Shown here piece after piece: positions 35,413 through 55,104 of a DNA stretch of 64,000 nucleotides; within the stretch, counting starts at the first letter, position 1; each line of letters opens with the position of its first letter. The stretch is taken from the NCBI RefSeq assembly GCF_016894445.1, contig NZ_CP056775.1, positions 5,010,001 through 5,074,000 on the forward strand. The letters run 5' to 3'. Position numbers and translations under genes: made by a program. Source of the DNA: Dyadobacter sandarakinus. Its GTDB lineage: Bacteria; Bacteroidota; Bacteroidia; Cytophagales; Spirosomataceae. The notes beneath the pieces are model-generated. The model saw only the letters and a list, made by a program, of their open reading frames with translations, did not search any database and was not told the origin of the DNA.

Positions 35413-35459
35413 CAATGTCGGGATGACAAGATTCGAACTTGCGACCCCTAGCACCCCAT
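35413..35459 (-). repeat. attL: tRNA-Pro 3' fragment (47-bp direct repeat)
   Basis: Identical to 55058-55104. Covers the 3' half of tRNA-Pro from the anticodon loop to just past the discriminator base; the next base differs (T here, G in the intact gene). Not a functional tRNA because the 5' half is missing. Confidence 0.93.
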
Positions 35460-35572
35460 TGGATATTTATTGTATTATTCCAAGAAGTTTTATTAAGCAT
35501 TATTATTATAAAATGCTCTAAATGAGCATTTTGATTATTTTTTGTAACTTTGGTTAACTTACGTTAGACACG

Positions 35573-35598
35573 AAATGTTCGACCTATGTTCGACCTAA
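35573..35598. repeat. Left arm-site candidate, tandem TGTTCGACCTA
   Basis: Two direct copies of TGTTCGACCTA in a 26-bp block that recurs exactly at 54989-55014. It ends 12 bp before the integrase start, so integrase binding could also repress its own gene. An AAATGCTC/GAGCATTT hairpin (35511-35531) and a -7-like TAACTTTG (35545-35552) lie just upstream. Confidence 0.7.
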
Positions 35599-35610
35599 AG
35601 TTGTAGTGCT

Positions 35611-36849
35611 ATGGCTATTTCGACCAAGTTTGTATTACGGAAGAAACGTGATTCGGAGGAAACTCAGTTCCCGATAATGCTTCAAATCATTATCGATAGA
35701 AAGAACCTTCTGGTGAGTACGAGGAAGATATGTTCGGAAGTTCAATGGCAGCCGAAGTTTCAATCCGTTGCAAAAACACATCCGAAGCACAAGGAAATTA
35801 ACCTCCTGCTTCGCACCATTGAGTCGGAAGTAGACTTCATGATCATCTCTTACGGGAAACAAAACAAGCGCCCCTCGTTTGACGAAATCAAGGCGCTGGT
35901 AAAAAAACTGACTGGCGGGCAAACAGAACCTGAAAAGAAAAAGCTGTTTGTACTTTTTGAAGAACACATTGCCAGGCTTAAAAGCCAAAACCGGTTAGGC
36001 AGTGCAGAGTCACATAACTCGACGCTGAAAAGCCTTAAACACTTCATGAACCAGAAGGATCAGGATATCCTCTCTATCGGCTTGCCATTCATTAACCGTT
36101 ATGAACAATGGCTGATCGACAAAGGCTGCACGATCGTCACCAGAAGCTTTTACCTGAGAACCTTCCGGACGCTCTGGAAAGTCGGGATTAAAGAAAACTA
36201 TTATCCCGAAACACATTACCCCTTCAAAGACTTCTCGTTCTCTAAATACAATAACCCTCGCACAAAGAAGCGGGCAATCACGAAGGAACAGATCGAGTTG
36301 ATTGCCGGAGCTGAAATCGATCCGGAAAATGATTCACTGATCAACTCGCGTAACTACTTCCTGTTTAGCTTCTATTGCCGAGGCCTGAACTTTACAGATT
36401 TGGCCGAATTGAAATGGACGAACATTGTCGATGGTGAGCTCCATTATGTGAGATCAAAAACAAAGGAAGAGTTCCGGTTTCGCTTGCACCCTTCGGCAGC
36501 TCAAATACTGGAATACTACAAAGATCTGAAAGGTAACAGCGATGCTGGCTTTGTGTTCCCAATCCTGTACAAGCGTCACGCAACGATTCAATCGGTTCGG
36601 GATCGGAAGAAGAAGATTTTGACCAGGGTTAACAAGCAAATTAAAGAGTTGGGCATAGCCCTCGGTATTATGAAGCCTTTAACGACCTATGTGGCCAGGC
36701 ACTCGTACGCGACCACGCTTCGGCGAAATGGTATATCCAAGGAGAATATAGGCAGATCGTTGGGCCACGATAGCTTGAAGACCACTGATATTTACCTGGA
36801 AGACATTGGAGACCCCGTGCTGGATGATTTGATCAACTCAACGATTTGA
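35611..36849 (+). CDS. int: Tyrosine integrase of the element
   Basis: 412 aa phage-integrase family recombinase with the Bacteroidota layout: an arm-binding N-terminal domain (about 1-110), a SAM-like core-binding domain (about 115-215) and a catalytic domain. Catalytic residues seen: Arg257 (FYCRGLNFTDL), Arg363 in YVARHSYAT (the HxxR His is Tyr360 here, a common variant), His386 (GHDSLKTTD) and the nucleophile Tyr395 (IYLED). It is the first gene inside attL, the expected place for the enzyme that recombines the tRNA-Pro 3' end. Confidence 0.95.
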   Translation: MAISTKFVLRKKRDSEETQFPIMLQIIIDRKNLLVSTRKICSEVQWQPKFQSVAKTHPKHKEINLLLRTIESEVDFMIISYGKQNKRPSFDEIKALVKKLTGGQTEPEKKKLFVLFEEHIARLKSQNRLGSAESHNSTLKSLKHFMNQKDQDILSIGLPFINRYEQWLIDKGCTIVTRSFYLRTFRTLWKVGIKENYYPETHYPFKDFSFSKYNNPRTKKRAITKEQIELIAGAEIDPENDSLINSRNYFLFSFYCRGLNFTDLAELKWTNIVDGELHYVRSKTKEEFRFRLHPSAAQILEYYKDLKGNSDAGFVFPILYKRHATIQSVRDRKKKILTRVNKQIKELGIALGIMKPLTTYVARHSYATTLRRNGISKENIGRSLGHDSLKTTDIYLEDIGDPVLDDLINSTI

Positions 36850-36853
36850 ACGA

Positions 36854-37921
36854 ATGTATTTTTTTAATTTGCCAGGTTTCGATCCTGATCTCGGTATAAA
36901 TCTGGACGATCAGGGACGGTTTCCGTATCTGAGATTCGTGGATCACGTTTTTCGCAGAGGAAAAGCAGACTACTTATCACATAACTTCCACTTTGAGAAC
37001 ATTGCCGATAAAGCAGCGCCGCCGGCATTCCTCAGTGAACCGAATCTCAAAGCCATTTTCGACCCGAAAGACCGGAAGAATATCATCGTGGACCATCATA
37101 GCCCAATCTCGGAGTCTTATGCCGACGAACTGAGAGCGCAATTTGACAGAGGTTACTTCGACGCGATGAAGGAGTATCCACAACAAATAGTCTCCATTCT
37201 TTGTAATCCTGACAGCGAAAGCAAAATCGCTCATTTGGAGCAATTCATTGAATTTTGCTCCTATCATTTATACTTTGAGGGATTTGCTATTCCATCGTGT
37301 TTATATGCGCTTGGATTCATTCAGGCCTACCTTGTGCGTGGGTGTGGCGATAGAGCAAATGCGCTTCGCCTTCCTAAACACAAATTTCCGGTCGTGTCAC
37401 AGAAGCAAGAATTGCCAGTGGCCGAAGTGCAAACGAAAGGCCCGGAGCGGATTCCGTTGGACTATGCGGTTGACGAAATCATATCCATGTGGTTGATTTT
37501 AGTTGATGCGTGGAAATGCAAGGCAGTGGGCTCGATTCAGGTTTTCACCAGTGAAGAGGCAGTGTTGCAGCTGTTGGGAATGATGTTTGAAGAAAAAGGA
37601 GGCAGACTGCCTAGACCTGAACACAAATATTTTGAAATGCCTCCGGGAAACTACGAGCGGGTTTTAAACCTGCTTATGCATGCCACCTACAAGCTGAATA
37701 CAGATAGGAACAATATTGGGCTTGACAGATACTGTCAATTGCTGCTCGATACATTTTCCTGCTATTCGAAAACGAAGCTCGAAAGCCTTCGCAGTAACAT
37801 CAATAAAGCACGTGGCAATATCGTGCAGAGTATCGGTAATCTGACCGACAGCCCACATTCTAAAAATGTGTTGAAAACATTAAGGAAAATAAACGAGTAC
37901 GGCGTCGAAGATCTGACTTAG
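36854..37921 (+). CDS. Unknown protein between integrase and excisionase-like gene
   Basis: 355 aa, soluble, no family recognised. The N-terminal about 190 residues are mixed alpha/beta with acidic character; a linker (about 192-205) follows; the C-terminal about 150 residues are mainly helical (SIQVFTSEEAVLQLLGMMFEE, YERVLNLLMHATYKLN, YCQLLLDTFSCY, KLESLRSNINKAR). It starts 4 bp after the integrase stop, so it is probably cotranscribed. By position it may regulate excision or transfer, but nothing in the sequence proves this. Confidence 0.75.
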   Translation: MYFFNLPGFDPDLGINLDDQGRFPYLRFVDHVFRRGKADYLSHNFHFENIADKAAPPAFLSEPNLKAIFDPKDRKNIIVDHHSPISESYADELRAQFDRGYFDAMKEYPQQIVSILCNPDSESKIAHLEQFIEFCSYHLYFEGFAIPSCLYALGFIQAYLVRGCGDRANALRLPKHKFPVVSQKQELPVAEVQTKGPERIPLDYAVDEIISMWLILVDAWKCKAVGSIQVFTSEEAVLQLLGMMFEEKGGRLPRPEHKYFEMPPGNYERVLNLLMHATYKLNTDRNNIGLDRYCQLLLDTFSCYSKTKLESLRSNINKARGNIVQSIGNLTDSPHSKNVLKTLRKINEYGVEDLT

Positions 37922-37987
37922 TCAACTTCATATTGTTTTTCCCCGATTTTCTAGCCTTGCTTTGCCCATCACCAAAACGCAAAAGGG

Positions 37988-38288
37988 ATGAGCACAACAG
38001 TTCTAGTTTCAATGAACGATCAGCAATTATCAGAGTTGATCGAGTCTTCACTGCGCCGGGTTTTAGAGTCAAAACCGGAGGCTGCCGCCGATACCAGTGA
38101 CACTTTGCTGGACACCAAGGAGGCCGCGCGCCTGACCAAATACAAGGAGACTTCCATTTATGGGCTGGTGAAAAGAAAAAAAGATTCCATTTTGCAAAAT
38201 GGAAGGCAAGCTACTCTTTTCCCGCAAAGAGCTTCTGGAATGGATAGCGAATGGTCAGCAAAAAATCGGAGGTAGCCATGAAAGATAA
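37988..38288 (+). pseudogene. Excisionase-like HTH gene with frameshift at an A7 run
   Basis: Frame 1 gives LDTKEAARLTKYKETSIYGLVKRKK, the first part of an excisionase/MerR-like winged helix. After the seven A at 38176-38182 it runs into unrelated sequence and stops at 38275. Removing one A restores the expected continuation (IPFCKMEGKLLFSRKELLEW) to a stop at 38286-38288. So the gene is frameshifted by one base, or corrected by transcriptional slippage, or the run is a sequencing error. The restored product of 99 aa would have its stop inside the start of the helicase gene. Confidence 0.8.
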
Positions 38289-39483
38289 TCCGGTCTATCT
38301 GCGCATTGGTACCAGTTACTTTAAGAAAGTCAACCGGCCACTATCTTCCGGCGACACGATTTCCTCCTTGATCCCCTGGTCGGCTGAATGCATCCGGTTG
38401 GATCACAGCCGTGACTATTTGAAAGACCGGGTGGATTGCTACGACGGATTCTGTTTTGTGCCGAGCCATCTGGACTACCAACAAAAGGTCGGCGGGTTTT
38501 ACAACCGCTACCAGCCATTCCAGCATGAGACGCAGCAGGGCGACGCTTCGGTGATCTTTCAGTTCCTGGGTCACATTTTTGGCGAGCAGATCGAGATGGG
38601 TTATGATTACTTCAAAATCCTTCTCGAACGTCCTACCCAGATCCTACCGATCTTGTGCCTTGTCAGCGAGGAGCGTGGAACCGGAAAGACCACATTCCTG
38701 CATTTTGTCAAGTCCATGTTCGGGGAAAACATGACGATCAACAGTAATGAGGATTTCCGCTCCAACTTTAACATCGAATGGGCGCAGAAACTCGTCATCG
38801 GGGTTGACGAAACGTTCCTGGATAGAAAGGAGGATTCCGAGCGGATCAAGAATCTGAGCACGGCCCGGTTTTACAAAGTCGAGGCCAAAGGCCATGACCG
38901 GCAGGAGGTGGAATTCTTCGGAAAATTCATTTTGTGCAGTAACAATGAAGATCATTTCATCATCGCCGAGCCGGGAGAAATCCGGTACTGGGTGAGAAAG
39001 GTGCCACCACTGAAATCAGAGAATCACCACTTGCTGGCCCAGCTTCGGGCTCAGATCCCGTTCTTTCTGCATTTTCTAGTGAGCCGTGAGTTTGTCTATC
39101 CCGGTAAAACAAGAATGTGGTTTACTGCGGATCAAATTGCGACACCCGCATTGAAAAAGCTGCTGAACCAAAATCGGAATAAGCTGGAAGTGGAGATCGC
39201 GCATATCCTGCTAACAATCGCAGATGAAAAGGAGCTGGATGAAATCCGGTTTTGCACTGGCGATGTCCAGGACTGGCTCAACAAAAAGCACATCCGTTTC
39301 AAAGACCTCTCACAGATCAAGCGGATCTTGCAAAATGCCTGGAAGTTGAGCCCGGCGAGTAATTCACTGACTTACCCGCAATACAAATTTTTAACGGACG
39401 GTTCCATCTTCGAGCAGACCGGCAAGGGCAGGTTCTATACACTATCCCGAAGACGTATAAATGAGCTCAACGAATTGCCCTAA
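38278..39483 (+). CDS. SF3-like replication helicase/ATPase
   Basis: 401 aa from ATG 38278; an in-frame GTG/ATG region upstream (38251) lies inside the excisionase gene and is less likely. Walker A EERGTGKTTFL (Lys137), Walker B KLVIGVDETFL and the sensor KFILCSNNEDHF match primase-associated phage/plasmid helicases (D5/DUF5906 type). The last about 130 residues may be a DNA-binding domain. Next to a primase and a repeat array, so likely the replication initiator or helicase of the element. Confidence 0.85.
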   Translation: MKDNPVYLRIGTSYFKKVNRPLSSGDTISSLIPWSAECIRLDHSRDYLKDRVDCYDGFCFVPSHLDYQQKVGGFYNRYQPFQHETQQGDASVIFQFLGHIFGEQIEMGYDYFKILLERPTQILPILCLVSEERGTGKTTFLHFVKSMFGENMTINSNEDFRSNFNIEWAQKLVIGVDETFLDRKEDSERIKNLSTARFYKVEAKGHDRQEVEFFGKFILCSNNEDHFIIAEPGEIRYWVRKVPPLKSENHHLLAQLRAQIPFFLHFLVSREFVYPGKTRMWFTADQIATPALKKLLNQNRNKLEVEIAHILLTIADEKELDEIRFCTGDVQDWLNKKHIRFKDLSQIKRILQNAWKLSPASNSLTYPQYKFLTDGSIFEQTGKGRFYTLSRRRINELNELP

Positions 39484-39701: not shown

Positions 39702-40637
39702 ATGACTTGCGAGCAAGCCAAACAGATATCTATTGTAGACCTGCTGGAACAATGTCATGTCCGCCCCCAATATGTCCGAGGACAAGACCATTGGTACCTC
39801 TCCCCGTTCAGGGAAGAGAAAACGCCTTCTTTTAAGGTCAATGCGCGGTTGAACCTCTATTACGACCATGGAAGCGGTCAGGGAGGAGATATTATTGATT
39901 TAGGGCGCGCCCTGTTTCGTTGCGATACAAAAGCGTTGTTGGAGAAATTGGATTCCCGTCTTTTCTTATTTCAACCGCAAGACCTAAAATTGGCTGGCTT
40001 GCATATAGACAGTGCCGTTACACCAGCCACAGCAATCGATCAGCCTGCCATCCAAATTACTGCTTTGAAAGAGTTAGGGACTAACCCCGCAATTACCCAG
40101 TACCTGGAATCGCGCCGTATCGATCTGGCCGTTGCTAAATCATATTGTCAGGAGGTATACTACCGGGTCGGCGACAAGAATTATTTCGCTGCCGGTTTTC
40201 AAAACCGGTCGGGTGGATATGAGCTGAGAAATGCTTACTTCAAGGGTTCGGCATCTCCGAAGGACATATCCCATATCGAGAATGGTCATCACTCGGTCTG
40301 CGTGTTGGAAGGCTTTATGGATTTTTTGTCGCTTCTCTCGCTTCGAAAACAGGAGCAGGTCCAGACCGACTTTGTGGTGCTCAATTCGGTAAGTTTGGCA
40401 GAGCGAAGTTTGGACATTGTCAAAGGTTACAGCACCGTATTTCTATATCCGAATCACGATACAGCCGGGAAAAAGCTGCTTGAAAAATTCGAGAACGCGG
40501 GGCTCAATTGCGTCGATGCCTCTGGTATCTATAAGGATTACAAGGACCTGAATCAGCTGCTGGTTGCAAGCAAACAGCAGGAAAAACAGCCACAACATCG
40601 GTACCGTCACAGGAAGTCTCGAGGGCTGGGCCTCTAA
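39702..40637 (+). CDS. Toprim-domain primase of the element
   Basis: 311 aa. N-terminal CHC2-like region keeps the shape (HWYLSPFREEKTPSFKVN, DHGSGQGGDIIDLGR) but has no zinc-binding Cys, as in other mobile-element primases of this phylum. The Toprim part has VLEGFMDFLSLL with the catalytic Glu, and FLYPNHDTAGKKLL where the usual DxD reads NHD. The last residues RHRKSRGLGL resemble the end of the relaxase. Probably primes replication of transferred single-stranded DNA. Confidence 0.85.
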   Translation: MTCEQAKQISIVDLLEQCHVRPQYVRGQDHWYLSPFREEKTPSFKVNARLNLYYDHGSGQGGDIIDLGRALFRCDTKALLEKLDSRLFLFQPQDLKLAGLHIDSAVTPATAIDQPAIQITALKELGTNPAITQYLESRRIDLAVAKSYCQEVYYRVGDKNYFAAGFQNRSGGYELRNAYFKGSASPKDISHIENGHHSVCVLEGFMDFLSLLSLRKQEQVQTDFVVLNSVSLAERSLDIVKGYSTVFLYPNHDTAGKKLLEKFENAGLNCVDASGIYKDYKDLNQLLVASKQQEKQPQHRYRHRKSRGLGL

Positions 40638-40759: not shown

Positions 40760-41137
40760 ATGAAAGAGGCAGAGAGCATGGAGCAACAGTCACACAAATC
40801 CAAAGGCGGCAGACCGCCCAAGAAGGTCAAACGAAACACGCAGCTGATGGTCCGCCTTTCGGAAACTGAGCGGTTTTTAATCGAGTCGAAAGCCAAGGAC
40901 GCAGGTCTTAGACCAAGCACCTGGCTGAGACAAGCGGCTAAGAAAGCCAGGGTTGTTGCGAGGCTTTCAGCAGAGGAAGCTGGCTTCGTTAGAATGCTGG
41001 CTGGCCTGGCCAATAACTTAAACCAGCTGCTCAGGTTTACAAATATGCAGGGGCTGTTGTACGAGACAAAAAAGGCCACGCAGCTACTATCAGACATTGA
41101 TCATTTACTCAAAATACTCACTAACGATGATCGGTAA
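40760..41137 (+). CDS. mobC: MobC-like mobilisation accessory protein
   Basis: 125 aa. A basic N-terminal tail (KSKGGRPPKKVKRNTQLMVRL) leads into a ribbon-helix-helix-like segment, followed by the relaxosome protein block DAGLRPSTWLRQAAKKARV and AGLANNLNQLLRFTN typical of MobC. It binds near oriT and opens the DNA for the relaxase. The end overlaps the relaxase start by 11 bp. Confidence 0.88.
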   Translation: MKEAESMEQQSHKSKGGRPPKKVKRNTQLMVRLSETERFLIESKAKDAGLRPSTWLRQAAKKARVVARLSAEEAGFVRMLAGLANNLNQLLRFTNMQGLLYETKKATQLLSDIDHLLKILTNDDR

Positions 41138-42065
41138 GATAATGATAGGATCAAGCTTTGGCGGAGCGGTTAGGTATGTCATGCAGAAAGAGCAGGCTAT
41201 CGTGCTTCATGGCGAAGGAGTCAGGACCCAGGATGTAAAATCAGCTATCCATGACTTCAATGCTCAGCGGCAGATGAATCCCGAGCTGGGCAAGGCTGTC
41301 GGCCACCTGGTGCTGAGTTGGAGTGCGTTTGACAAGCATAAGCTCTCACAAAAAGTCATGGTAGAGAGGGCTGCCGAATATATGGCCAAAATGAAAATCC
41401 AAAACACCCAATACTTGGTCGTTGAACATCGAGATACCAATCAGCCGCACATTCATATCATATACAACCGGGTTGACAATGCTGGCAAATCCATCTCTGA
41501 CCGGTTTCAGAAGCGAATGAATCAGAAAATTTGCAAGGAGATGACTTTGAAACATGGCTACCACATGGGTCAGGGGAGAACGCTGGTTAACCGAACGAGG
41601 CTTAAAGGGATTGATAAAACGCGTTACGAGCTGGCAGACCAGATTCGAATGGCAAGCAGATCGGCAGTCAATTGGAAACAGTTGGAAGGCGCGCTTTCAT
41701 CGAGCGGGATTGGCATCATTTACAAGTATAAGTCTGAGACTAATCAAATACAGGGTATCAGCTTCGAAAAGGACGGAACGGTGTTGAAGGGCTCAAAAGT
41801 GGACCGAAGCATGAGTTTTCCGGCACTCGATAGAACACTGCGAGAAAATTTTCAGCACCAAATGGCGGTGAGGCGTCGGATGTTGGATCAGGGGATACTA
41901 CCACCCGCGCAAGAAAAAATGCTAACGCACCGATATGGTTTGCCGCACTGCAGGGAAGAAAACTTGCTGAAAGACTTGATGGATCCGGTACATCAACACG
42001 AGACGATTAATCCAGAGCTTAAAAGAAAACACAAACGCAAAAAATCAAGAGGACTACATTTATGA
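41127..42065 (+). CDS. mobA: Relaxase/mobilisation nuclease
   Basis: 312 aa from ATG 41127; a TTG at 41097 gives ten more residues but MIGKIMIGSSFGGAVRYV is the usual start. The three-His metal site is in EHRDTNQPHIHI (His101, His108, His110). The enzyme nicks oriT and pilots the strand through a conjugation channel supplied by another element. The C-terminal tail is basic (HKRKKSRGLHL). Overlaps the next gene by 4 bp (ATGA). Confidence 0.92.
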   Translation: MIGKIMIGSSFGGAVRYVMQKEQAIVLHGEGVRTQDVKSAIHDFNAQRQMNPELGKAVGHLVLSWSAFDKHKLSQKVMVERAAEYMAKMKIQNTQYLVVEHRDTNQPHIHIIYNRVDNAGKSISDRFQKRMNQKICKEMTLKHGYHMGQGRTLVNRTRLKGIDKTRYELADQIRMASRSAVNWKQLEGALSSSGIGIIYKYKSETNQIQGISFEKDGTVLKGSKVDRSMSFPALDRTLRENFQHQMAVRRRMLDQGILPPAQEKMLTHRYGLPHCREENLLKDLMDPVHQHETINPELKRKHKRKKSRGLHL

Positions 42066-42601
42066 AAGATATTGAAGATAAACTTGATGGCTTCGAGCAG
42101 ATACTAAGTATCCTGGTAAAAAAGATCTCAGTGATGGAAAGCCTATTGCCTGATCCCAAAGTTCCGGTCGATGATTTGGCACGCCAAATGCTAGCAGACA
42201 TTCAGGCAAATGTGGCAAAAATGCCATCAGGTAAGCTGGTGCTTTCTGAGCTAGCTGGTATTCGAAAGCGCCTTGACACACTGTCTTATGCTCTGGAAAA
42301 TCCCAAGCCAGTCACGCTCGATTTCAAGGCTAAAAGCTATTTCGTTTCACTAGCAGTACTGCTTTGTACTACTTCTGCTTCGCTTGTGACAGTTAGATGT
42401 TCGAATGAGAAAATTGAACAGGCGAGCCGAACTGCGGCAAGGTATGAAGTGGCTCAGAAATTATCTCCTCGTTTGACGAGAATGATCGATCAAGCCTTCG
42501 ACCAAACAACGCAACCCTCCGTAGATTCGCTTCAGCACGCCTGGGAGTTGCTGGAAACAAATTCGCACAACCCAAAAAGTAGCAAGCGGAAAAGGCGATG
42601 A
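42062..42601 (+). CDS. Mobilisation-associated membrane protein, unknown
   Basis: 179 aa. An N-terminal helical region, one membrane segment around residues 100-118 (YFVSLAVLLCTTSASLVTV) and a helical C-terminal region ending in a basic tail (NPKSSKRKRR). No family that I can name. Translational coupling to the relaxase suggests a role in transfer, for example docking the relaxosome at the membrane; inference only. Confidence 0.75.
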   Translation: MKDIEDKLDGFEQILSILVKKISVMESLLPDPKVPVDDLARQMLADIQANVAKMPSGKLVLSELAGIRKRLDTLSYALENPKPVTLDFKAKSYFVSLAVLLCTTSASLVTVRCSNEKIEQASRTAARYEVAQKLSPRLTRMIDQAFDQTTQPSVDSLQHAWELLETNSHNPKSSKRKRR

Positions 42602-42838
42602 AGGAAGTACGGTTTAACGTCCATAGCTGCAATACACTGTAATTAGATTTCATGTACCACTAAACTGTACCGTTGAAGGCCGGATTTCGTGAAAAAACTA
42701 CCCCGAATGCAATTCATGCCGCGGAGTACGGAAAAACGACCGAATAAATCTGATACCGGAAGATATAACTAATAGTTATGAATCGGACATTCTCGCACTG
42801 ATGTGGTCTCTCTCGATACGCCGGTAGGATAACCTAAG

Positions 42839-43183
42839 CTAAATTGCTATGAAAACTTTATGAACTGTCACGATATAGTGAGAGTTACTAACTTCATTGA
42901 CACCTGAAAATAAGATGTAGTTCTCATGGTTACGGCTGCGTATGGAGTAAAAATTGATAAATCCTCCATTGGGTGCCGAAGAAAACTTTCCTAGGTGAAG
43001 AATCTCCATCAAGCTCTCGAACTTTTCAGGGACATTGCCACCAACAAACTGAGTACCTATTATCGCCCGAAAGTCCACTGTCACCAAGTCGTCGTCGAGA
43101 TCAATCTCTGTAAGCGTTGACATGCCGGTGACTGCATTGTCGTAATAACATTCGTGCTCTGCTAATTCTTTTACGATTTTCAT
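42839..43183 (-). CDS. Hypothetical protein, unknown
   Basis: 114 aa, acidic, mixed alpha/beta, no signal or membrane span. Opposite in direction to the mobilisation genes. The start MKIVKELAEHECYYDN is clean, with an ATG and an upstream AT-rich region, but there is no recognised family. The flanks 42602-42838 and 43184-43516 hold no gene; the second is very AT-rich and contains the small repeat CGTTCATATAAACG (43421-43434), possibly part of a recombination site of the next gene. Confidence 0.55.
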   Translation of the reverse strand: MKIVKELAEHECYYDNAVTGMSTLTEIDLDDDLVTVDFRAIIGTQFVGGNVPEKFESLMEILHLGKFSSAPNGGFINFYSIRSRNHENYILFSGVNEVSNSHYIVTVHKVFIAI

Positions 43184-43516
43184 TATTCATAATAAGTGGT
43201 ACACCTAGCTTGGACGCAGTAGCTTCCCAGCCTAACTGCATAGCTGTCCAGCCTATGGGAAACATCAAGAAATGGCGCGGCGCACGTCCCTCTCAATTTG
43301 CTGTACGCTAGTCCAGGCGCAATATCAGAATATGTCTGGCATTGAGCCATGATTCTTTAACTGTTTTGCAAACTACGGAATATGAAGAGCTAGTTCAAAT
43401 TATAGAATAAACGTTCATATAAACGGTAAGGATAATTTAGTAAAAATGTCTTAATATTATATTGCTATTATTATAAAATAAATCTTCCAATAAGGTTTTT
43501 ATCTAATCCGTCAAAA

Positions 43517-44134: not shown

Positions 44135-44174
44135 CTCATGCTTGGTAACTATTTAGAACATTGAATCGTAGAAG

Positions 44175-47030: not shown

Positions 47031-47222
47031 GTGAACCATTAAGCGTCACTGCATAAGTTTACCTGTACCCTTGTCGTGTCAACCAGACTTATGCGCCTAT
47101 CAGTTTTTCTACAAAGCACCGTGGTAATAAGCCACACACTCAAATGCGTTGATTGTATGGTTTAACATTTTTTATGTTGGTTTGAAAAGGTCTGTGTGGT
47201 TGCTTGCGCCAAAAATCGAGCC

Positions 47223-47876
47223 ATGAACAACACTTTAAAATTCTTGTATTTAACTGCCATAAGCTTTACAGTGCTTTTTACACCTATCAAATCAGCTGCT
47301 GCGTTTTACTCCAAAGAAATATCAAGAGCTGATTCCACCAGTGGCGAAAGGATTAAGCATGTTAGATCGCCAAGTCCCCGGACCGCTGCCAAGTTGGCGG
47401 TTATTCCAGGCTTAGGTCAGGTTTACAATAGAGATTTCTGGAAGATTCCGATCGTCTACGGATCGTTGGGCGGAAGTTTGGTTGCTATCCATTTGAATTC
47501 AATCAAATATCAGGACTTTTTGAAAGCGTACTTAGGGTTCTACAATCTTGGTAATGGAAGCCTAAGCCAGGGGGTAACAGCCGATACGCGCATGCCTGTT
47601 GTGGTGCGGAATCTTTTCAATACCAAGAGTGTGGTGAAATTATACACGAGAGATCAGGTGGCGAGGCAAAAGGATGTGTGGCGAAGATACAGAAATGTTT
47701 CAGTTCTAATCTCAGGCATGATCTATTTGCTAAGTATCATTGAGGCCAATGTCGCCGCTCATCTTAAAGGCTTTGATGTTTCCGACGACCTATCTATTCA
47801 AATCCAACCCCAACCAGTCACACTGCCTGGGATGATGTCAGGCGCTAACATTCGAATTGTTCTTAGCTATAAGTAA
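47223..47876 (+). CDS. DUF5683 domain membrane protein
   Basis: 217 aa from ATG 47223; a GTG at 47196 would add nine residues before the signal peptide and is less likely. Signal peptide at residues 1-25, then the family motif AKLAVIPGLGQVYNRDFWKIPIVYGSLG, and hydrophobic segments at about 75-95 and 160-178. Function unknown; DUF5683 proteins are common in Bacteroidota envelopes. A chromosomal-type gene carried in the element. Confidence 0.85.
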   Translation: MNNTLKFLYLTAISFTVLFTPIKSAAAFYSKEISRADSTSGERIKHVRSPSPRTAAKLAVIPGLGQVYNRDFWKIPIVYGSLGGSLVAIHLNSIKYQDFLKAYLGFYNLGNGSLSQGVTADTRMPVVVRNLFNTKSVVKLYTRDQVARQKDVWRRYRNVSVLISGMIYLLSIIEANVAAHLKGFDVSDDLSIQIQPQPVTLPGMMSGANIRIVLSYK

Positions 47877-48042
47877 TCGGTTTCCTCGGGAGGAATATTA
47901 CGCGGCTGGCGAAGTTCTTGCTTTTGTGCAATGACAAGGGAGCTTTATAATTTCAAAGAGGATGAAATTTTGCTGACTGAATACCCGTTTTTAGTCTATC
48001 AGTTACAAACAGAAACTCTTGTCGATCCCTTATCATTTTAAA

Positions 48043-48456
48043 ATGAAATCATTTATCACTAAACACAGCCATTCACAAAAATGGGCATTAGCTGTATTAG
48101 GCTGCTTTGTTACCGGACTCTTATCATGCGAAGATTACAGAGAAGCCGAGCCCATCTTTACGGAGCAAGTCAAGGTTATAAACCTTAACAGGGATACTTT
48201 AATAGCGGTTTACAATGAGAAACTGGCAACTACTGCCAGAGTATCTTTTGTCGAAACTTTATCTGATACGGCATTAGTAAAAATTGCCTCAGATACAGTT
48301 TTTTCCAAGCCTCAAGCTACATTTCTGCTCCCGATCACAAATCCACCTCTCATGCTCATATCAGGCCTTTCAGGGGACTCTTTATTTATCAAGTATGAAC
48401 CCTATAAAAAGGTAATAACAGGCGATCTTACAATTGAAATTACTTTTCAAAGATAG
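48043..48456 (+). CDS. Small lipoprotein, unknown
   Basis: 137 aa from ATG 48043. N-terminal hydrophobic segment ends in a lipobox (VTGLLSCED), so it is probably a lipoprotein. The mature part is beta-rich with Thr/Val (VKIASDTVFSKPQATFLLPI, LTIEITFQR). No family recognised. Downstream of the DUF5683 gene in the same direction. Confidence 0.7.
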   Translation: MKSFITKHSHSQKWALAVLGCFVTGLLSCEDYREAEPIFTEQVKVINLNRDTLIAVYNEKLATTARVSFVETLSDTALVKIASDTVFSKPQATFLLPITNPPLMLISGLSGDSLFIKYEPYKKVITGDLTIEITFQR

Positions 48457-48474
48457 TACATGCCTAAGCTTTAA

Positions 48475-48726
48475 ATGATGAATGACTCGGGAAAACGTAA
48501 AAAAAGCCCTTACAGCCGTTCTTTTGAAAAGAGGGTTAAAGAGGCCAGATCCGATAAAGCAAAAGGGGAACTGATCACAGTTGATCCGGAGAATGTATGG
48601 GATAGCATCGAATCCGGATCCGAGCAGGATAACACAGAGATTAGCATAAAAAGGTACTTGGTTTCAGGACGATCGCATCTTTATCCGACAGCAGCAGGTG
48701 AAGAACGGAGAATGCCGCAGCAGTAG
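48475..48726 (+). CDS. Small antitoxin-like protein, unknown
   Basis: 83 aa, highly charged. The part SPYSRSFEKRVKEARSDKAKGELITVDPENVWDSI resembles small Bacteroidota antitoxins that end in a VDPxDVW-type segment. The C-terminus has no similarity. No toxin gene is next to it, so a toxin-antitoxin role is not supported by context. 18 bp after the lipoprotein gene. 48727-48958 shows no gene. Confidence 0.45.
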   Translation: MMNDSGKRKKSPYSRSFEKRVKEARSDKAKGELITVDPENVWDSIESGSEQDNTEISIKRYLVSGRSHLYPTAAGEERRMPQQ

Positions 48727-48958
48727 TTTCCTATGCATTAACTAGACGACCCAGCCCAAGGCACGACCTGCAAATGAAGAAGGCGCTCGCTGAAATCTTA
48801 ACGTAAAGACCTCGAGCCTCAGTAGAAAGGTCTATGGTGCCACATACCGACGCTGAATGAGTACAGAAAAACCACCGGATTATTTTAAGGATAAGATCGT
48901 ATAATGTTAGAATGCACCGACCTGAAGCTTATAAACAAAACATGTGTTGACTTAGCCT

Positions 48959-49891
48959 ATGAAAATTGCCCTGTTCTTCATATTGACACTTTTACTATTT
49001 AATCCATCTAGATACACGCTCAAAGACAAGAAAGGGAGCCGTCTTTCAGGGCCGTCGACCATATTGTGGAAAATCACCGGCAAAGAATCCAAACAGCCAT
49101 CCTACTTGTTGGGGACATTTCATTTGGCTGATGCCGATTGGCTGTATACATATCCTGAAATACAAAAGGCCATTGATGAAACCGAATTTATCTTAACAGA
49201 AGCATTCACAACAGATTCGACACCAGCATTTTCCATTCCGCGCAAAGATCAGTTAAAAGCCATACCACTACTGGACGAAGAACAATATGCGACGCTCGAT
49301 TCTTTTTTCATAGCTCGTGTCGGTGAAGGGATAAAAGGGAATCAAGACGCTGAAAATATGACTGTTGCTGAAATGAGAGGTGCAATTATTACCACTCTGA
49401 TTTCTGAGACAAAAGGTCCGAATGGAATCACCAATTTTATGGATTTAGACCTCTTTAAGTATTATCAGAAACTAGGCAGGAAAGGAGGTCGTCTGGATCG
49501 CGTTGCTCCTTCGGAATTTGACTCCGTTGCCATTGAACATGCAAGAGAATACCTTGCGCGGTCACTACGCTATATTGAAGGAAGTGATAAGTCTGATTGG
49601 AATATTTACCATCAGGACGGTATAGAAGATATCATTTCCCGCTATAAGGCCTTTGATCTTGATTACAAGTTGGATCAGCACGCAGATAAAATGGAGCTAT
49701 TATCTGATTTCGATTTTGTACCCGTCGAAGAGCGAAATAAAAATTGGATAAGCAAAATTACCTCCATGATCTCTACTCGACCAACTCTAATAGCTGTTGG
49801 TTTAGGCCACCTATATTACCGGACAGGTGTAATTTCCCTACTGCGCAAGGATGGCTATAAGGTTGAGCCGATCATACTCAGCAAAAAATGA
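48959..49891 (+). CDS. TraB/GumN family protein
   Basis: 310 aa with an N-terminal signal or membrane segment (MKIALFFILTLLLF). Diagnostic blocks: SYLLGTFHLADADWLY (GTxH motif), ETEFILTEAF, and the C-terminal PTLIAVGLGHLYYRTGVISLL. The family (Tiki/TraB superfamily) includes proteases and heme-uptake-like proteins with two conserved GxxH motifs; the activity of bacterial members is poorly known. Cargo of the element. Confidence 0.88.
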   Translation: MKIALFFILTLLLFNPSRYTLKDKKGSRLSGPSTILWKITGKESKQPSYLLGTFHLADADWLYTYPEIQKAIDETEFILTEAFTTDSTPAFSIPRKDQLKAIPLLDEEQYATLDSFFIARVGEGIKGNQDAENMTVAEMRGAIITTLISETKGPNGITNFMDLDLFKYYQKLGRKGGRLDRVAPSEFDSVAIEHAREYLARSLRYIEGSDKSDWNIYHQDGIEDIISRYKAFDLDYKLDQHADKMELLSDFDFVPVEERNKNWISKITSMISTRPTLIAVGLGHLYYRTGVISLLRKDGYKVEPIILSKK

Positions 49892-50264
49892 TAAGATATT
49901 TTCAAGAGCTGTGCGTATGCTCGCCAGAGTACAGAAGAACGACTGTATTTGTGAACCTTGCTGCCCCTGACCTGTCCTGAAAAGCGTTGACCGATTGCTT
50001 TTACCAGCTTTTAAAACAGCGGATTTGTTAGTAATTCGTTCTTCTTCATAGCAGCTATATTGAACTCGCAAAATAGCAATATATGTGGGATGCTTTTGGT
50101 TGCCTCTATCCAACGCGCAAATGTTAACGTTCAGGTAATTTAACCGGTACCGCCCTTACTTAAACCTATACATGAGCAGTATACGTTGATTTTCATTAAA
50201 GGTCAGACCATTTAGCTCATGTAGCATTGTGTTAATAATCAAAACTTGCCCATATGCAAGGCAA
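49892..50264. other. Intergenic region, 373 bp
   Basis: Between convergent TraB/GumN and MBL genes. No gene, RNA or strong terminator that I can support. Composition suggests decayed insertion sequence. Confidence 0.35.
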
Positions 50265-51023
50265 TTAGAACAGTTTTTCGCCGTCGTTGGGCGCCCAGGC
50301 GCGGCCTGAAAATCTATTGGAAACGAGTGCTGCGCGCACATCACTTCGAGACTCTGGAACATGGTTCAAGCTTTCCAGGTGTACGATATATACATTTGCG
50401 GCTGGCGCATGACGACACACGGTCAAAATATCGGAGATATCCATAATGATAGGTGTTCCGGTAGTGAAACGGGCACCACCCCCGTTCAATACAATGTGGG
50501 TCGGATTATTGTCGGCAATTGCAGCGCCAACTTCGTCGCACCAGATGGTGTCGCCTGCAATGTAAAGCCGGTAGGCCTCATGAGCTATTACATAACCAGA
50601 CACTGACCCGAGCATTTTTTCGATTTCTCCTGTCCCGTGATGGCCATCCGTGCGCTTTATCTGTAACTCGTCGATTGTTACTTGGTCATCAATAGCAACT
50701 ACGCTGGTAAAGCCTTGCTCGCGGACTATGTTGGCATACTCCGGCGGAGTATATAGCGTGATATCTTTCGGTAGAAGCTCACGAGCCCTTTCATCCCAAT
50801 GATCGTTATGCAAATGCGTTAGTAGTACGGCGTCAGTCCGGCTGATAAGATCCTGGAGCTCTAATTCGGAGACAGGCAAGTCCACGATCGGATTGCGGAC
50901 AGGGTTGGCAGAGTTTGGAATGGGATCATAAGCCTCTTTTTGGGCCAGCATCGGGTCGATTAGAAAGATTTTGCCATGAACATCAAGGACCAGGGAGGCA
51001 TTTCTTAAAAGCTGCAGTTTCAT
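50265..51023 (-). CDS. MBL-fold metallo-hydrolase
   Basis: 252 aa, UlaG/YcbL-like beta-lactamase fold. The metal site THLHNDHWD gives His70, His72, Asp74 and His75; further ligands are in DGHHGTGE and the later YIAGDTIW. No signal peptide, so cytosolic. Likely hydrolyses an ester or lactone; substrate unknown. It is divergent from an HxlR regulator with a 96-bp shared promoter region, suggesting regulation by it. Confidence 0.9.
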   Translation of the reverse strand: MKLQLLRNASLVLDVHGKIFLIDPMLAQKEAYDPIPNSANPVRNPIVDLPVSELELQDLISRTDAVLLTHLHNDHWDERARELLPKDITLYTPPEYANIVREQGFTSVVAIDDQVTIDELQIKRTDGHHGTGEIEKMLGSVSGYVIAHEAYRLYIAGDTIWCDEVGAAIADNNPTHIVLNGGGARFTTGTPIIMDISDILTVCRHAPAANVYIVHLESLNHVPESRSDVRAALVSNRFSGRAWAPNDGEKLF

Positions 51024-51119
51024 TGGATATGATTTAACTTTGACCCTTCAAAGTTTGACTTTATTTGCCGTATCTTTTTGAAATTAACTTTTTTGTAACC
51101 TGTTCCCCTTTTGGTAACT

Positions 51120-51473
51120 ATGGATATGAAACAATTCAGACATTGTGGCCTCAATGTCGCGCTAGGCATGTTATCTGGTAAATGGAAACCAATTATTTTA
51201 TTTTATCTCTTCCATAACGAACAGATGCGCTTCACAGAATTATGGCGCGTCATACCAAAAGTGACAAAAAAAGTGCTGCTAGATCAGCTACGGGATCTGG
51301 AAATTAACCAGTTAATTGTGCGCGAGGAAAGAAATACTTTTCCTCCCGAAGTCTACTACGCCCTGTCTGAACGCGGCAAGACACTAGGCCCGGCCCTGGC
51401 GACCCTTGAAAGTTGGGCAAACGAATATGCCCCGACTGAGGTAGCAGCGCAGCGCCAGCAGAGTATGCGGTAA
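51120..51473 (+). CDS. HxlR-family transcriptional regulator
   Basis: 117 aa from ATG 51120; a TTG at 51111 or ATG at 51126 are alternatives. Winged helix with the conserved Cys near the start (FRHCGLNVALGMLSGKWKPIIL) and MRFTELWRVIPKVTKKVLLDQLRDLE plus YALSERGKTLGPAL. HxlR proteins sense reactive aldehydes, quinones or disulfide stress. Divergent from the MBL hydrolase gene. Confidence 0.92.
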   Translation: MDMKQFRHCGLNVALGMLSGKWKPIILFYLFHNEQMRFTELWRVIPKVTKKVLLDQLRDLEINQLIVREERNTFPPEVYYALSERGKTLGPALATLESWANEYAPTEVAAQRQQSMR

Positions 51474-51572
51474 TACACTAGCGTAAGTAATTTTGAAAAA
51501 GGCGGCCTCATTAACTTCGATTTAGTACATATGATAACGTCCTTTATCACATGTTAAAAGTGAGTAATTATT

Positions 51573-51905
51573 ATGAACGAGCTGACTGTTAAAATTTCTT
51601 CCTTACCTGTGCCGGCTTTGGTGGCCAGTGCTGGCGACCGGGCAAAGAAGCGCTTCCTGGAATTCTTTGCGGCCACGATCCGGAACCCAAATACCCGCAG
51701 GTATTATGGTCGGGCAGCCGCTGATTTTATAATGTACTGCGAACAGCTTGGCGTTAGCTCCATTGACCACGTGATGCCGCTGCATGTGGCCGCCTGGGTT
51801 GAAATGCTTTGCCACTCGGTTTCTTCCCCTACTGTTAAATTACGGTTGGCAGCCGTGCGGCATTTGCTGGATTAGTTGGTGATTAGCCAGATCGTACCAC
51901 CCATC
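51573..51905 (+). pseudogene. Tyrosine recombinase cut by a nonsense codon
   Basis: 100 aa of an N-terminal SAM-like core-binding domain (FLEFFAATIRNPNTRRYYGRA, VAAWVEMLCHS, VKLRLAAVRHLLD). At 51873 a TAG stands where the family has Trp, and the frame after it still reads LVISQIVP, as expected of HLLDWLVxxQIVPxNPA. It then decays with no catalytic domain. A single base change (TGG to TAG) explains the stop. Remnant of another mobile element. Confidence 0.75.
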
Positions 51906-52058
51906 TAGCATCATCAATTAAAGGCCGCTCCTACTAGGTCTAGGTGAGTAAGACCCTATTTTCTATATAGATGAAAGCACGTAAGATCTTGAATGCTACC
52001 TCCTGCAAGCAGGTTGTCAAACATACATGAGCTTTCAAGCGCCATTCAGATCATCAGT

Positions 52059-54467
52059 CTATTCACTACGCAAGCTTTTCACTGGATTTAGCAGTGCTGC
52101 CTTAATAGCCTGGAAGCTGACAGTGGTAAGGGCGATTGCAAGCGTTCCTATGCTTGTAAGCGCAAATATCCACCAGGAAACTTGTGTATGGTAACTATAT
52201 TTTTCCAACCAGCGATCCATTATCAACCATGCGGCGGGTGTTGCCAATAGACAAGACAGTATTATCAGAACCACAAAATCAGCGCATAGCAGCCGCCATA
52301 TGCTGATGACGGATGCTCCTAGCACTTTTCTGATACCGACCTCTTTCGTTCGTTGTTCTGCCATAAAAGATGCCATTCCAAAAAGTCCAAGACAACTAAT
52401 GAAGATCGCCAAGCCCGTAAATACTGCCGCCAAGCTACTGATCTTTTCCTCTGAGGCAAACTTGGCTGCATAGTCCTGATCAACAAACTTATAATTGAAG
52501 GGTGAATCAGGACTATGCTTTTTGAAAACAGTTTCCAATTGTCCTAAGGCTTGGCTGGTACGCGTTGAAGGGTTAAGCCGCACTGTTATGAACCGCCCTC
52601 CCTTCGGGTGGATGAAGAAAATGGATTTTCGAACTGGCTCATAAGGCGATTCCATCACCATATCTTCAATCACTCCGATGATCTTAAATGACCGTCCATC
52701 CCAGGTTACAGTTTCACCGATAGCATCATTTAAGTCCTTTTTCCCTAAACCCATGAATTGGGCGGCCGCCTTGTTGATTACAAACCCAGCAGAATCCGTG
52801 GCAAAAGCCTTGTTAAAATCCCGGCCAGCTACAAAATCCCATCCGACTGTTTTGCCAAAATCATGGGATATCCCAATGGTTGCAAACTCAGATTGCAATC
52901 CTGGGTCTTTGGCTTTCCAATTGAAACCTACATTGGCAGAAAATACTTCTGTGAGCGGAGCTGCCGATTCTGCCATCGATGTTACAGTGCCCATTTTCAA
53001 CAGATCATCCAACACAGCGTCAAAGTGCGTATGAACACCTTCGTTAGTGACCAGCATGGTGACTAAGCCTTGCCTGTTATATCCGGTGGCCCGATCTTTG
53101 GCGTGCAGGATCTGCTTGTAAACAACGACAGTGCCGATGATAAGTGTAATGGAGACCGTGAACTGTATGACCAGCAGCACTTTTCGTGGAAGTGCCGCAC
53201 GCAGGCCTGAAGAAACCCATCTACCTTTCAATGCTTTAATCGGCTGGAAAGAGGACAAATAAAATGCTGGATAACTGCCTGCAATAAAGCCGGTCAGCAG
53301 GGTAAATAGCAGCCCCCAACCCCAGAAAACAGGGCTCAGCCAGGGAAAGCTCATTTTCTTTTCAGCAATCTCATTGAATGTGGGCAGTAGAAGCCATGTC
53401 AGGACCAGCGAGATTAGAAATGCCGGGAAGACAACCAGGAACGACTCACTAAAAAACTGGCTTACCAGCTGCATCCGCACCGAGCCTATGGCTTTTCTTA
53501 TTCCTACTTCCCGGGCCCGTTTCTGCGACCGCGCAGTACTCAGGTTCATGAAATTGATACAAGCCAATAGCAGTACAAATATGCCAATAGTCCCAAATAA
53601 CCAGACATAATCAATCCTACCGGTTGTGTTTTGTCCGTTGAGCCATTCAGAATATAGATGCCAGCGACTCATAGGCACCAATATAATTTGGGGCTTGAAT
53701 TTCCGTCCTGCTTCATCCACTTTGCGCAGTTTCAGGTCCCTGATCTTTGTGGAAAGCATGTCCGAATCCCTGTTCTTGGAAAGCTGTACAAAAATCTGAA
53801 ATGAACTGCTTTCCCAATCTCTGTTTTTAACGGCTTCTTTTACCCAATCCGTAGATGCGGTATACAAATCGAACGGGGCGATAAAACCGAGCTCGTGAAA
53901 TTCAGAGTTGTAAGGAATGTCTTTGTAAACGCCAACTACTTTAACATCAAGATCATCATTGATTTTGATCATTTTGTCCACAGGATCAGCATTCCTAAAG
54001 ATTGCTTTGGCTACGGATTCGGATAGCAGGACTGTGGCTGGATCTTTTAAGCCCAATGCGCTTCCACTAAGCAATTGTAAGGAGAGCATTTCGGCGGCAC
54101 CAAAAGACATGAAGTTGCCTGGCCTTGTAAAGCTCGACGTTTTGTAGGTAAGTGTATATTGTTGTAGCCATGAAGTAATTACCACACGGTCAAAGTCTTT
54201 GCCAAAGTCGGTTTGCAGCGATTCAAAAAGTGGGGCTGGGACGTTATCTCCCGTATTTAACTGACCATCTAAGGTCTGCTGCTGCATGATGCGAGCAATA
54301 TGCTTGTAGTGGGTGTGGTATTTATTGAAAGAAAGCTCATCATAAATCCATAGACCTATTAGCATGGCTATTGTCATACCCATTGCAAGCCCACCAATGT
54401 TAATGGCAGAATAGGACTTATTGCCAATCAGATTACGCCAGGCAATTTTGAGATAGTTTTTGATCAT
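52059..54467 (-). CDS. ABC-transporter permease of the MacB/FtsX type
   Basis: 802 aa from ATG 54467; the frame starts at 54500 but MIKNYLKIAWRNLIGNKSYSAINIGGLAMGM is the usual start. Two MacB-PCD/FtsX units: a membrane helix, a large periplasmic domain, three helices (GIFVLLLACINFMNLSTARSQKRAREVGIRKA), then the same again, ending AIKAALLNPVKSLRSE. No ATPase gene is adjacent, as is common for Bacteroidota members of this family. Possibly exports a peptide or lipid. It is the last gene of the element. Confidence 0.92.
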   Translation of the reverse strand: MIKNYLKIAWRNLIGNKSYSAINIGGLAMGMTIAMLIGLWIYDELSFNKYHTHYKHIARIMQQQTLDGQLNTGDNVPAPLFESLQTDFGKDFDRVVITSWLQQYTLTYKTSSFTRPGNFMSFGAAEMLSLQLLSGSALGLKDPATVLLSESVAKAIFRNADPVDKMIKINDDLDVKVVGVYKDIPYNSEFHELGFIAPFDLYTASTDWVKEAVKNRDWESSSFQIFVQLSKNRDSDMLSTKIRDLKLRKVDEAGRKFKPQIILVPMSRWHLYSEWLNGQNTTGRIDYVWLFGTIGIFVLLLACINFMNLSTARSQKRAREVGIRKAIGSVRMQLVSQFFSESFLVVFPAFLISLVLTWLLLPTFNEIAEKKMSFPWLSPVFWGWGLLFTLLTGFIAGSYPAFYLSSFQPIKALKGRWVSSGLRAALPRKVLLVIQFTVSITLIIGTVVVYKQILHAKDRATGYNRQGLVTMLVTNEGVHTHFDAVLDDLLKMGTVTSMAESAAPLTEVFSANVGFNWKAKDPGLQSEFATIGISHDFGKTVGWDFVAGRDFNKAFATDSAGFVINKAAAQFMGLGKKDLNDAIGETVTWDGRSFKIIGVIEDMVMESPYEPVRKSIFFIHPKGGRFITVRLNPSTRTSQALGQLETVFKKHSPDSPFNYKFVDQDYAAKFASEEKISSLAAVFTGLAIFISCLGLFGMASFMAEQRTKEVGIRKVLGASVISIWRLLCADFVVLIILSCLLATPAAWLIMDRWLEKYSYHTQVSWWIFALTSIGTLAIALTTVSFQAIKAALLNPVKSLRSE

Positions 54468-54710
54468 GGGAGCAGTCGGTTTCTCATAAAAGAGTCTCAT
54501 GAGAATCCCTTACTTGTGCTTAGTACAATAAGGTTACAAGTAAGCGCCGATTAACTTTGTTAAGCCAAAACGGGTTTCTTAGGTCAATGCTGTGTATGTA
54601 ACACGCAAACGATTATTAAAGAGTGAAACTAAAATTATGGTATTGGAAGAACAGGTAATCAATAAGTCTGGCGCTGCGATGATTGTGAACTTGCTGAATT
54701 AACTAGGCTT

Positions 54711-54742
54711 GTCCACAAGCATACGTGCGTTTGCTTGTGGAC
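54711..54742. repeat. Inverted repeat near the element's right end
   Basis: GTCCACAAGCA pairs perfectly with TGCTTGTGGAC, loop TACGTGCGTT. It lies in a 590-bp gene-free stretch before attR. Could be a regulatory or recombination site; nothing more is seen in 54501-54988. Confidence 0.45.
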
Positions 54743-54988
54743 GCCTGAAGTCAATAGGAAAGTACAGATTAATGTGTACTGCTCCGCGCTAACTGAACCC
54801 AAATCTTTGTCCAAATGATATACAGGCACGTTTCTGGTCAAGCTTGAAATTACACTTTAACGACCGTATAATCGAACACTGGTCGAGCTAGTCGATCAAA
54901 GATTTTGATGCCTTTTATGGAAGTCGAAGTCTTAAATTAGGCGCGATAAGTACGACGACAACAAGAAAAACTCGATGAACCTGAGAAA

Positions 54989-55014
54989 AAATGTTCGACC
55001 TATGTTCGACCTAA
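54989..55014. repeat. Right arm-site candidate, tandem TGTTCGACCTA
   Basis: Same 26 bp and same orientation as 35573-35598. It is 44 bp inside attR. Paired arm sites at both ends are expected for integrases of the lambda/IntDOT type. Confidence 0.7.
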
Positions 55015-55015
55015 T

Positions 55016-55051
55016 GAAAAAGCCACTTACAACTCTCGGTCATAAGTGGCT
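55016..55051 (-). terminator. Element-borne terminator for tRNA-Pro
   Basis: On the minus strand AGCCACTTA pairs with TAAGTGGCT (perfect 9 bp, 13-nt loop), followed by TTTT. It lies directly after the tRNA 3' end and inside the element, so it replaces the original terminator at 35371-35407. Confidence 0.75.
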
Positions 55052-55057
55052 GATTTT

Positions 55058-55104
55058 CAATGTCGGGATGACAAGATTCGAACTTGCGACCCCTAGCACC
55101 CCAT
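55058..55104 (-). repeat. attR: 47-bp direct repeat within tRNA-Pro
   Basis: Identical to 35413-35459. Covers the 3' half of the intact tRNA-Pro from the anticodon loop outward. Confidence 0.93.

Follow-up and report, generated by a model that had tools for sequence, protein, structure and literature searches.

The non-replicating Bacteroides units NBU1 and NBU2 are mobilizable elements with a MobP relaxase that reside in tRNA-Leu and tRNA-Ser, respectively, and are moved by integrative and conjugative elements (ICEs) with VirD4 and mating-pair formation type B (MPF-B) machinery; no accessory factor is listed for them (PMC5704250). Tn6031, an integrative and mobilizable element (IME) of Sphingobacterium with a tyrosine integrase, occupies the 3' end of tRNA-Pro (PMC5704250). 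The mobilizable transposons (MTns) of Prevotella intermedia, MTnPi4 among them, are described as encoding a relaxase, a primase-family protein, a tyrosine integrase and, in their cargo, an ABC transporter component (PMC4755523); MTnPi4 is inserted in tRNA-Leu (PMC5704250). Here we analyze an element at a tRNA-Pro(GGG) gene of Dyadobacter sandarakinus, located in a 64,000-nucleotide stretch (the window; contig NZ_CP056775.1, positions 5,010,001 to 5,074,000) of a 6.07-Mb single-contig genome. Taken as a whole, the locus is very probably best explained as an IME of a widespread Dyadobacter family whose transfer depends on a helper.

Like NBU1 and NBU2, the window element combines a tyrosine integrase at a tRNA 3' end with a MobP relaxase. 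An earlier reading made without database searches (the sequence-only reading) had assigned it to the NBU type, in a Cytophagales-like host and with a different tRNA target. The host, Dyadobacter, fits and the class, a tRNA-borne MOBP mobilizable element, stands. The NBU label itself does not hold for the target, which is indeed different (tRNA-Pro compared with tRNA-Leu and tRNA-Ser), or for the accessory protein, a NikA/MobC-like factor; going by the published descriptions, the element is also set apart by its length of 19.6 kb (11.1 kb for NBU2). Tn6031 is alike by description in being a Bacteroidota IME at the 3' end of tRNA-Pro, a target that is thus already known for such elements, and the Prevotella MTns are described as similar in content, with a different host and target. 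The window element is a new member of an IME family widespread in Dyadobacter, ordinary in kind, rather than an NBU.

Two perfect 47-bp direct repeats 19,645 bp apart frame the element and are the longest among the repeats reported for 33-57 kb of the window (Table 1). Repeats of the tRNA-Pro(GGG) 3' part around about 19.6 kb had been proposed before and their exact positions are confirmed; the right junction, previously put at a 52-kb end, lies at 55.06 kb. By our estimate, an exact 47-bp repeat within 24 kb is very unlikely to have arisen by chance. Of the repeat, 43 bp belong to the tRNA-Pro 3' part and 4 bp lie beyond the tRNA 3' end. Since the intact tRNA-Pro stands at the right end, the right repeat copy is the element's own, the left copy is the displaced one of the host and the integrase is located at the tRNA-distal end. 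A pair of perfect 26-bp inner repeats, absent from the earlier reading, probably represents the arm sites of the integrase. They are read in this way because the paired TGTTCGACCTA motif recurs inside both ends of a tRNA-Ala element in the same genome and of the G016 and G105 elements, as expected, and because the integrase possesses an arm-binding domain (PF17293); in the G017 element the paired motif is present at the right end only, the left end holding a single unit. Two attachment (att) cores and two arm repeats are all that was found in the window.

In three relatives lacking the integrase at E <= 1e-100 (G007, G014, G019), the native terminator follows directly after tRNA-Pro. In G105, which harbors a family element (cores at 4842811 and 4862988), this terminator lies outside attL and the tRNA bears the element hairpin and an arm repeat; judging from this arrangement, the family element displaced the native terminator of the tRNA. 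The syntenic left flank (window 24-29.7 kb, whole or in part) is found near tRNA-Pro in G002, G003, G007, G008 and G010. No match to the cargo (blastn, at least 60 bp, E <= 1e-8) is present in the tRNA-Pro-adjacent stretches of 24 same-genus relatives, and relatives without the integrase were not seen to have the whole of 35.5-55 kb at this locus. Five relatives (G017, G016, G020, G001 and G107; in G020 and G001 the two element ends are on different contigs) have a worn right end of another element to the left of attL, indicating that the site collects elements in tandem. Left of attL in the window, three genes at 31297-35315 are not at the same place in relatives. This stretch is likely the residue of an older island, as the left flank contains no arm repeat, its hairpin is non-native and no counterpart is found beside the tRNA-Pro of the relatives compared. 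Degenerate second tRNA-Pro pieces beyond the native terminator in G007, G019 and G105 are possible traces of older insertions.

From left to right, the element encodes an integrase, p355, an excisionase-like helix-turn-helix (HTH) protein, a helicase, a primase, a NikA/MobC-like protein, a relaxase and p179, followed by 12.4 kb of cargo. Pfam and NCBIfam confirm the integrase beside attL and the helicase, primase, MobC and relaxase genes named in the sequence-only reading. Its statement that conjugation pore genes are missing agrees with our Pfam scan, in which no pore or coupling protein is found among 20 open reading frames (ORFs), smaller ORFs being outside the scan. With its own integrase and att sites, its own MOBP relaxase and no pore or coupling protein of its own in the scanned ORFs, the element shows these features of the canonical MOBP class of IMEs. 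The true start of the relaxase is likely codon 11; its NCBIfam matches to NF041325, MobB and TraI/MobP are below cut-off. p355 has no match in Pfam, NCBIfam or PHROG and its AlphaFold model, with a mean predicted local distance difference test (pLDDT) score of 41, is too poor for use. RteC was rejected as its identity, the single PF09357 match of the genome being weak and elsewhere. A homologue of the excisionase-like protein with an open frame (L064) matches PHROG 66 (excisionase and regulator) at 4.3e-7. The same order from HTH to relaxase is found in HTH-ATPase-toprim-MobC-relaxase modules of Bacteroides and Phocaeicola (NZ_OY725959.1 and relatives), whose relaxase is 40% identical; these modules differ in containing another ATPase with 19% identity to the window helicase.

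Table 1. Features of the tRNA-Pro(GGG) element, in window positions
Feature	Position	Strand	Basis
attL, displaced 3' part of host tRNA-Pro(GGG)	35413..35459		47-bp perfect repeat; identity stops at anticodon loop
26-bp inner repeat, left copy, two units of TGTTCGACCTA; probable integrase arm-type site	35573..35598		perfect repeat of 54989-55014
Tyrosine integrase, 412 aa; arm-binding, SAM-like and catalytic domains	35611..36849	+	PF17293, PF13102, PF00589
p355, 355 aa, no known family; kept beside int in sister elements	36854..37921	+	tblastn in sisters
Excisionase-like HTH gene	37988..38275	+	HTH_17 weak, below cut-off
P4/VapE-type helicase	38251..39483	+	DUF5906 2.9e-20, VapE 1.2e-5
Small primase, CHC2 zinc finger and Toprim, C-terminus ..HRKSRGLGL	39702..40637	+	PF01807, PF13155
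Candidate origin of transfer (oriT), nested inverted repeats between primase and mobC	40650..40711		fold z -2.56; conserved in five elements
NikA/MobC-like relaxosome accessory protein	40760..41137	+	PF21983 3.7e-18
MOBP-type relaxase (MobA/VirD2-type), C-terminus ..KRKKSRGLHL	41097..42065	+	PF03432 1.5e-32
p179, 179 aa, 3' of relaxase; basic C-terminus ..SSKRKRR	42062..42601	+	no family; homologues in sister elements
Variable cargo: Mpi-type serine recombinase, low-molecular-weight phosphatase-like, leucine-rich repeat, DUF5683, TraB/GumN, metallo-beta-lactamase hydrolase and HxlR regulator, truncated recombinase, FtsX/MacB permease	42602..54980		Pfam/NCBIfam
26-bp inner repeat, right copy; probable arm-type site	54989..55014		perfect repeat
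Terminator-like hairpin for rebuilt tRNA, supplied by element	55021..55051	-	sequence; native terminator displaced in G105
attR, tRNA 3' part supplied by element	55058..55104		47-bp perfect repeat
Rebuilt tRNA-Pro(GGG)	55062..55136	-	ARAGORN

The integrase is present in 13 of 48 genus genomes at E <= 1e-100, the host genome included, as 14 copies. Seven copies have a tRNA-Pro repeat upstream (at most 3 mismatches) and are 76-100% identical to the window integrase, and four have a tRNA-Ala repeat (at most 4 mismatches) and are 67-69% identical; in this comparison integrase identity follows the tRNA target largely, not fully. One family element is located in the same genome at 3026365 to 3051744 (L006, L007), in tRNA-Ala(GGC), with 45-bp repeats and the same arm repeats, and its repeat stops at the same anticodon-loop edge as in the tRNA-Pro element. 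The two elements of the host genome have helicases 97% and p355 proteins 91% identical, compared with 68% for the integrase, 59% for the primase and 56% for the relaxase, and on these identities they can be described as a stable core with exchanged ends. The G017 sister is 90% identical over 35373-42749 and carries different cargo, while the G105 sister matches the window element (above 100 bp) only at 35416-41593 (72%) and 54962-55136 (87%). The compared sisters have in common mainly the int-to-mob module and the right end, and their cargo differs. A third, decayed module is found in the host genome at about 2.076-2.080 Mb (L178, 6.0-10.5 kb), its relaxase broken by a stop. The result is an IME family of environmental Bacteroidota that has clear boundaries and integrase lineages mostly matched to the tRNA they target, making it useful for studies of target switching.

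In the mechanism we propose, the integrase would bind the paired arm sites and insert the circular form by recombination at the anticodon stem-loop of tRNA-Pro(GGG), the anatomy of this step being observed and its catalysis presumed. Because a substitute 3' half and terminator come with the element, the tRNA stays whole. Once the element is excised, the relaxase and the NikA/MobC-like protein would nick the nested-hairpin oriT, a block with 86% mean column identity over five elements. Since the scan of the element turned up neither a pore nor a coupling protein, the strand would likely exit by way of a co-resident Bacteroidota-type ICE, using the coupling protein and pore of the latter; the element looks as if it travels only by borrowing the DNA-transfer machine of another element. 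The relaxase, and perhaps the primase too, may be recognized by the basic tail KSRGLxL-COOH that both display, and an exported primase could start second-strand synthesis in the recipient.

Several observations weigh against this account. For this particular copy the empty site is deduced from other family members, since the relatives compared include no close sister strain with an unoccupied site and have nothing equivalent to 31.3-35.4 kb next to their tRNA-Pro. Two integrases (68-69% identical) are located in a Pro-like tRNA of unassigned type and the target of the G122 integrase (96%) is likewise unassigned. The oriT hairpin stems show zero compensatory changes across five sequences; covariation was therefore dropped as proof of the structure, and what speaks for an oriT is where the block lies, its shape and how well its sequence is conserved. 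A DNA comparison with four sister elements shows that the excisionase-like gene changes frame after codon 65, owing to a length difference in an A-rich run; open copies are found among the sisters. In addition, the host genome yields a single match to the TraG-type conjugation ATPase TIGR03783, a 138-aa frame below cut-off, in a search aimed at this helper type only. Across the genus, 31 of 48 genomes do exceed the cut-off, which counts in favour of the account. The frameshift and the ATPase fragment indicate that this copy may be stalled, with transfer probably needing an incoming helper and excision possibly impaired. If the truncated recombinase in the cargo is counted as a further sign of decay, the locus could even be a fossil, a former IME no longer able to excise or move in this strain. 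We find that possible and lean against it: the integrase, helicase, primase, mobC and relaxase frames are open, the helicase shares 86-97% identity with that of three sisters, and the copies of att site and arm repeat remain perfectly matched. A helper can also arrive later, and the open excisionase-like frame of the sister element in the same genome (L006) might act in trans.

A composite origin, either a smaller IME (about 35.4-42.7 kb plus the right end) enlarged by the later uptake of unrelated DNA or a fusion of two elements within one pair of repeats, is an even proposition. Across the 48 genus genomes, with six candidates scored per genome, the cargo is met as scattered pieces only, which match many separate places and of which the longest among the matches listed covers 2.5 of 12.4 kb. 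The G+C content drops to 35-36% at 45-47 kb, a truncated recombinase is located at 51573-51875, and five sisters have a worn right end from another element to the left of attL, which points the same way. However, the window's complement of two att cores and two arm repeats speaks against it, and a composite would still move as one unit. It is highly improbable that the locus is a P4-like phage satellite or an integrated plasmid and not a conjugation hitch-hiker. The P4/VapE-type helicase and the small primase would suit such an origin, but the relaxase, NikA/MobC and oriT-like block are present and conserved and no capsid or packaging family is found among the 20 ORFs scanned. A helper-dependent IME remains the preferred reading.

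The part of the element worth following, and one that matters more than the element itself, is a shared C-terminal tail. The relaxase ends in KRKKSRGLHL and the primase in HRKSRGLGL, so that two unrelated proteins have the peptide KSRGLxL in common. All six residues common to both tails are encoded by different codons, indicating agreement at the protein level and not copied DNA; a DNA repeat was ruled out on this ground. When a relaxase-tail profile was applied to 16 Dyadobacter stretches, 14 of 357 gene-like ORFs scored above 3, namely primases, two copies of p179 and whole or fragmentary relaxases; two other relaxases of the host genome, those of L089 (4.18 Mb) and of a 4.38-Mb module, did not. 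A broader set comprised 82 relaxase-anchored loci including two plasmid loci, scored with a profile built from 42 unique relaxase tails. In this set 34 of the 41 primases, or 17 when only their 24 unique tails are counted, exceed the 99th percentile of other ORFs, and a shift control reading the 24 primases 8, 16, 30 and 60 residues further in yields 1, 0, 0 and 0 of 24. Among 49 unique tails of small primases (270-380 aa), scores above 4 are found in 30 of 39 relaxase-linked primases compared with 0 of 10 without a detected relaxase (Fisher p 1.1e-5, for sequences that are not independent). The median distance from the D-x-N motif to the end is about 8 residues in the ten unlinked primases and about 26 in the others. 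Linkage was defined as a match to four query relaxases at most 3.5 kb away on the same strand, which other relaxases may escape. The ten unlinked and four of the 39 linked primases stem from 20 Toprim loci picked mostly by a short open frame, 6 of which yielded no primase in the size range and were left out.

Within elements, relaxase and primase tails match with a mean of 4.35 compared with 2.25 when shuffled (p 0.011, 20 pairs), which is just a hint as it is confounded by lineage. Tails also extend beyond the Dyadobacter family: the primase of the Bacteroides and Phocaeicola modules is tailed and their relaxase basic-tailed, as in the window element. The ICE relaxases of G016 (KKKKGMSQSL) and G008 (KKKKGFSQSL) end in a manner near that of the IME relaxases of G016 and G020 (..KRKKYLGQSL), as if the hitch-hiker copied the label of its helper; the resemblance is weaker for the ICE relaxases of G107 and G021. 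The decayed third module of the host genome ends its primase in ..KQSQGLSI and its relaxase in ..KRKKSIGLHL.

We tentatively propose, at somewhat less than even confidence, that KSRGLxL could serve as a shared export signal for relaxase and primase. Weighing against it, 9 of the 39 relaxase-linked primases score low, and in a relaxase-blind Toprim sample the tail is present on one of four relaxase-linked primases (L220, whose relaxase is tailed too), the L214 and L215 primases having a basic end without it. Both relaxase and primase of the host's own 4.38-Mb module, the source of the fourth, lack the tail, as do three ICE primases beside relaxases (scores -11.5, -19.3 and -7.4), which, when counted, bring the tally to 30 of 42 small primases beside relaxases. 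The tail could alternatively be a plain basic DNA-binding or protein-contact tail, an interpretation we consider quite plausible while still short of an even chance. It would account for the lysine- and arginine-rich composition, the equally basic end of p179, the tailless ICE primases and the fact that some Bacteroides MobC proteins end in KKGKRF or similar, just under the 99th percentile. It fits less well with the glycine-hydrophobic-x-hydrophobic end, which is position-specific, and with the distribution of the tail: MobC, helicase and integrase of the window element are without it, as are the ten homologous primases without a detected relaxase, and 0 of 30 presumed chromosomal DnaG proteins (longest ORF per locus) resemble it (best score -5.8).

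A broader idea, which we hold to be rather doubtful at present, is that Bacteroidota mobilizable elements label proteins for conjugative export by a short C-terminal tail, a basic run plus G-hydrophobic-x-hydrophobic or, in Sphingobacteriaceae, ..GISR. Such a tail would be found on the relaxase and often on the element's own primase, delivered with the DNA, and would have been grafted onto other module proteins, including zeta-type and AbiEii-type toxins, as recipient-acting effectors. If true, the export signal would provide a way to predict other conjugatively delivered proteins. Precedents for primase or toxin movement in conjugation come from outside Bacteroidota: a translocated primase (Sog), C-terminal basic or hydrophobic signals and a Cre assay are described for other conjugation systems (PMC11288057), and the Bartonella toxin-antitoxin toxin VbhT carries a type IV secretion system signal (PMC5675462). 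VbhT uses a BID domain and not an 8-residue tail. A literature search that covered few subscription papers returned no recognisable description of a Bacteroidota conjugative export signal or such a tail, nor of a Dyadobacter IME.

Tailed non-primase proteins, some of which rank highest among the remaining ORFs of the 82-locus set, are a lead, not a result. In the near-identical modules L117 and L125, a zeta-toxin-like protein downstream of the relaxase module (12002-12691) has a C-terminal extension ending in ..QSRGIGR, similar to the end of the relaxase. A zeta-toxin survey of 395 genomes gave 9 places, none tail-like in score (best 1.5) and two ending in ..YSLGR and ..YTIGR, so that the toxin extension rests on few cases. 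Two AbiEii-type proteins beside relaxases end in ..KGHGMTR (L141, 11759-12469) and ..RGYSFSR (L126, 11360-12040; score only 2.0), and a nucleotidyltransferase in L109 in ..KRGRGPKL. An unclassified 291-aa protein in L159 and a 92-aa piece in L145 end in ..KSRGFKL and ..KSKGLKL, respectively. A short ORF at 8770-9411 of L117 that matches both helicase and primase queries and ends in ..KGLGLGR is an apparent deletion fusion.

The cargo contains further recombinase genes. The Mpi-type serine recombinase (43517-44134) is below the NCBIfam cut-off, and a place in G115 matches it and its neighbour at 95% identity. It was rejected as the mark of an invertible promoter, since 30 inverted-repeat pairs were found in 42.5-55.1 kb and none of the 25 longest was convincing. 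A defence function was likewise rejected, with zero PADLOC matches in 10 proteins. The truncated recombinase is an N-terminal fragment of another tyrosine recombinase (PF02899), and G122 contains similar DNA (78%) near its integrase; among the matches listed, G122 has in common with the window small pieces near the right end and this recombinase fragment. A sequence of about 133 bp at 46899-47031 has multiple copies in many Dyadobacter genomes (at least 4 in G106, 3 in G122) and is perhaps a small dispersed repeat.

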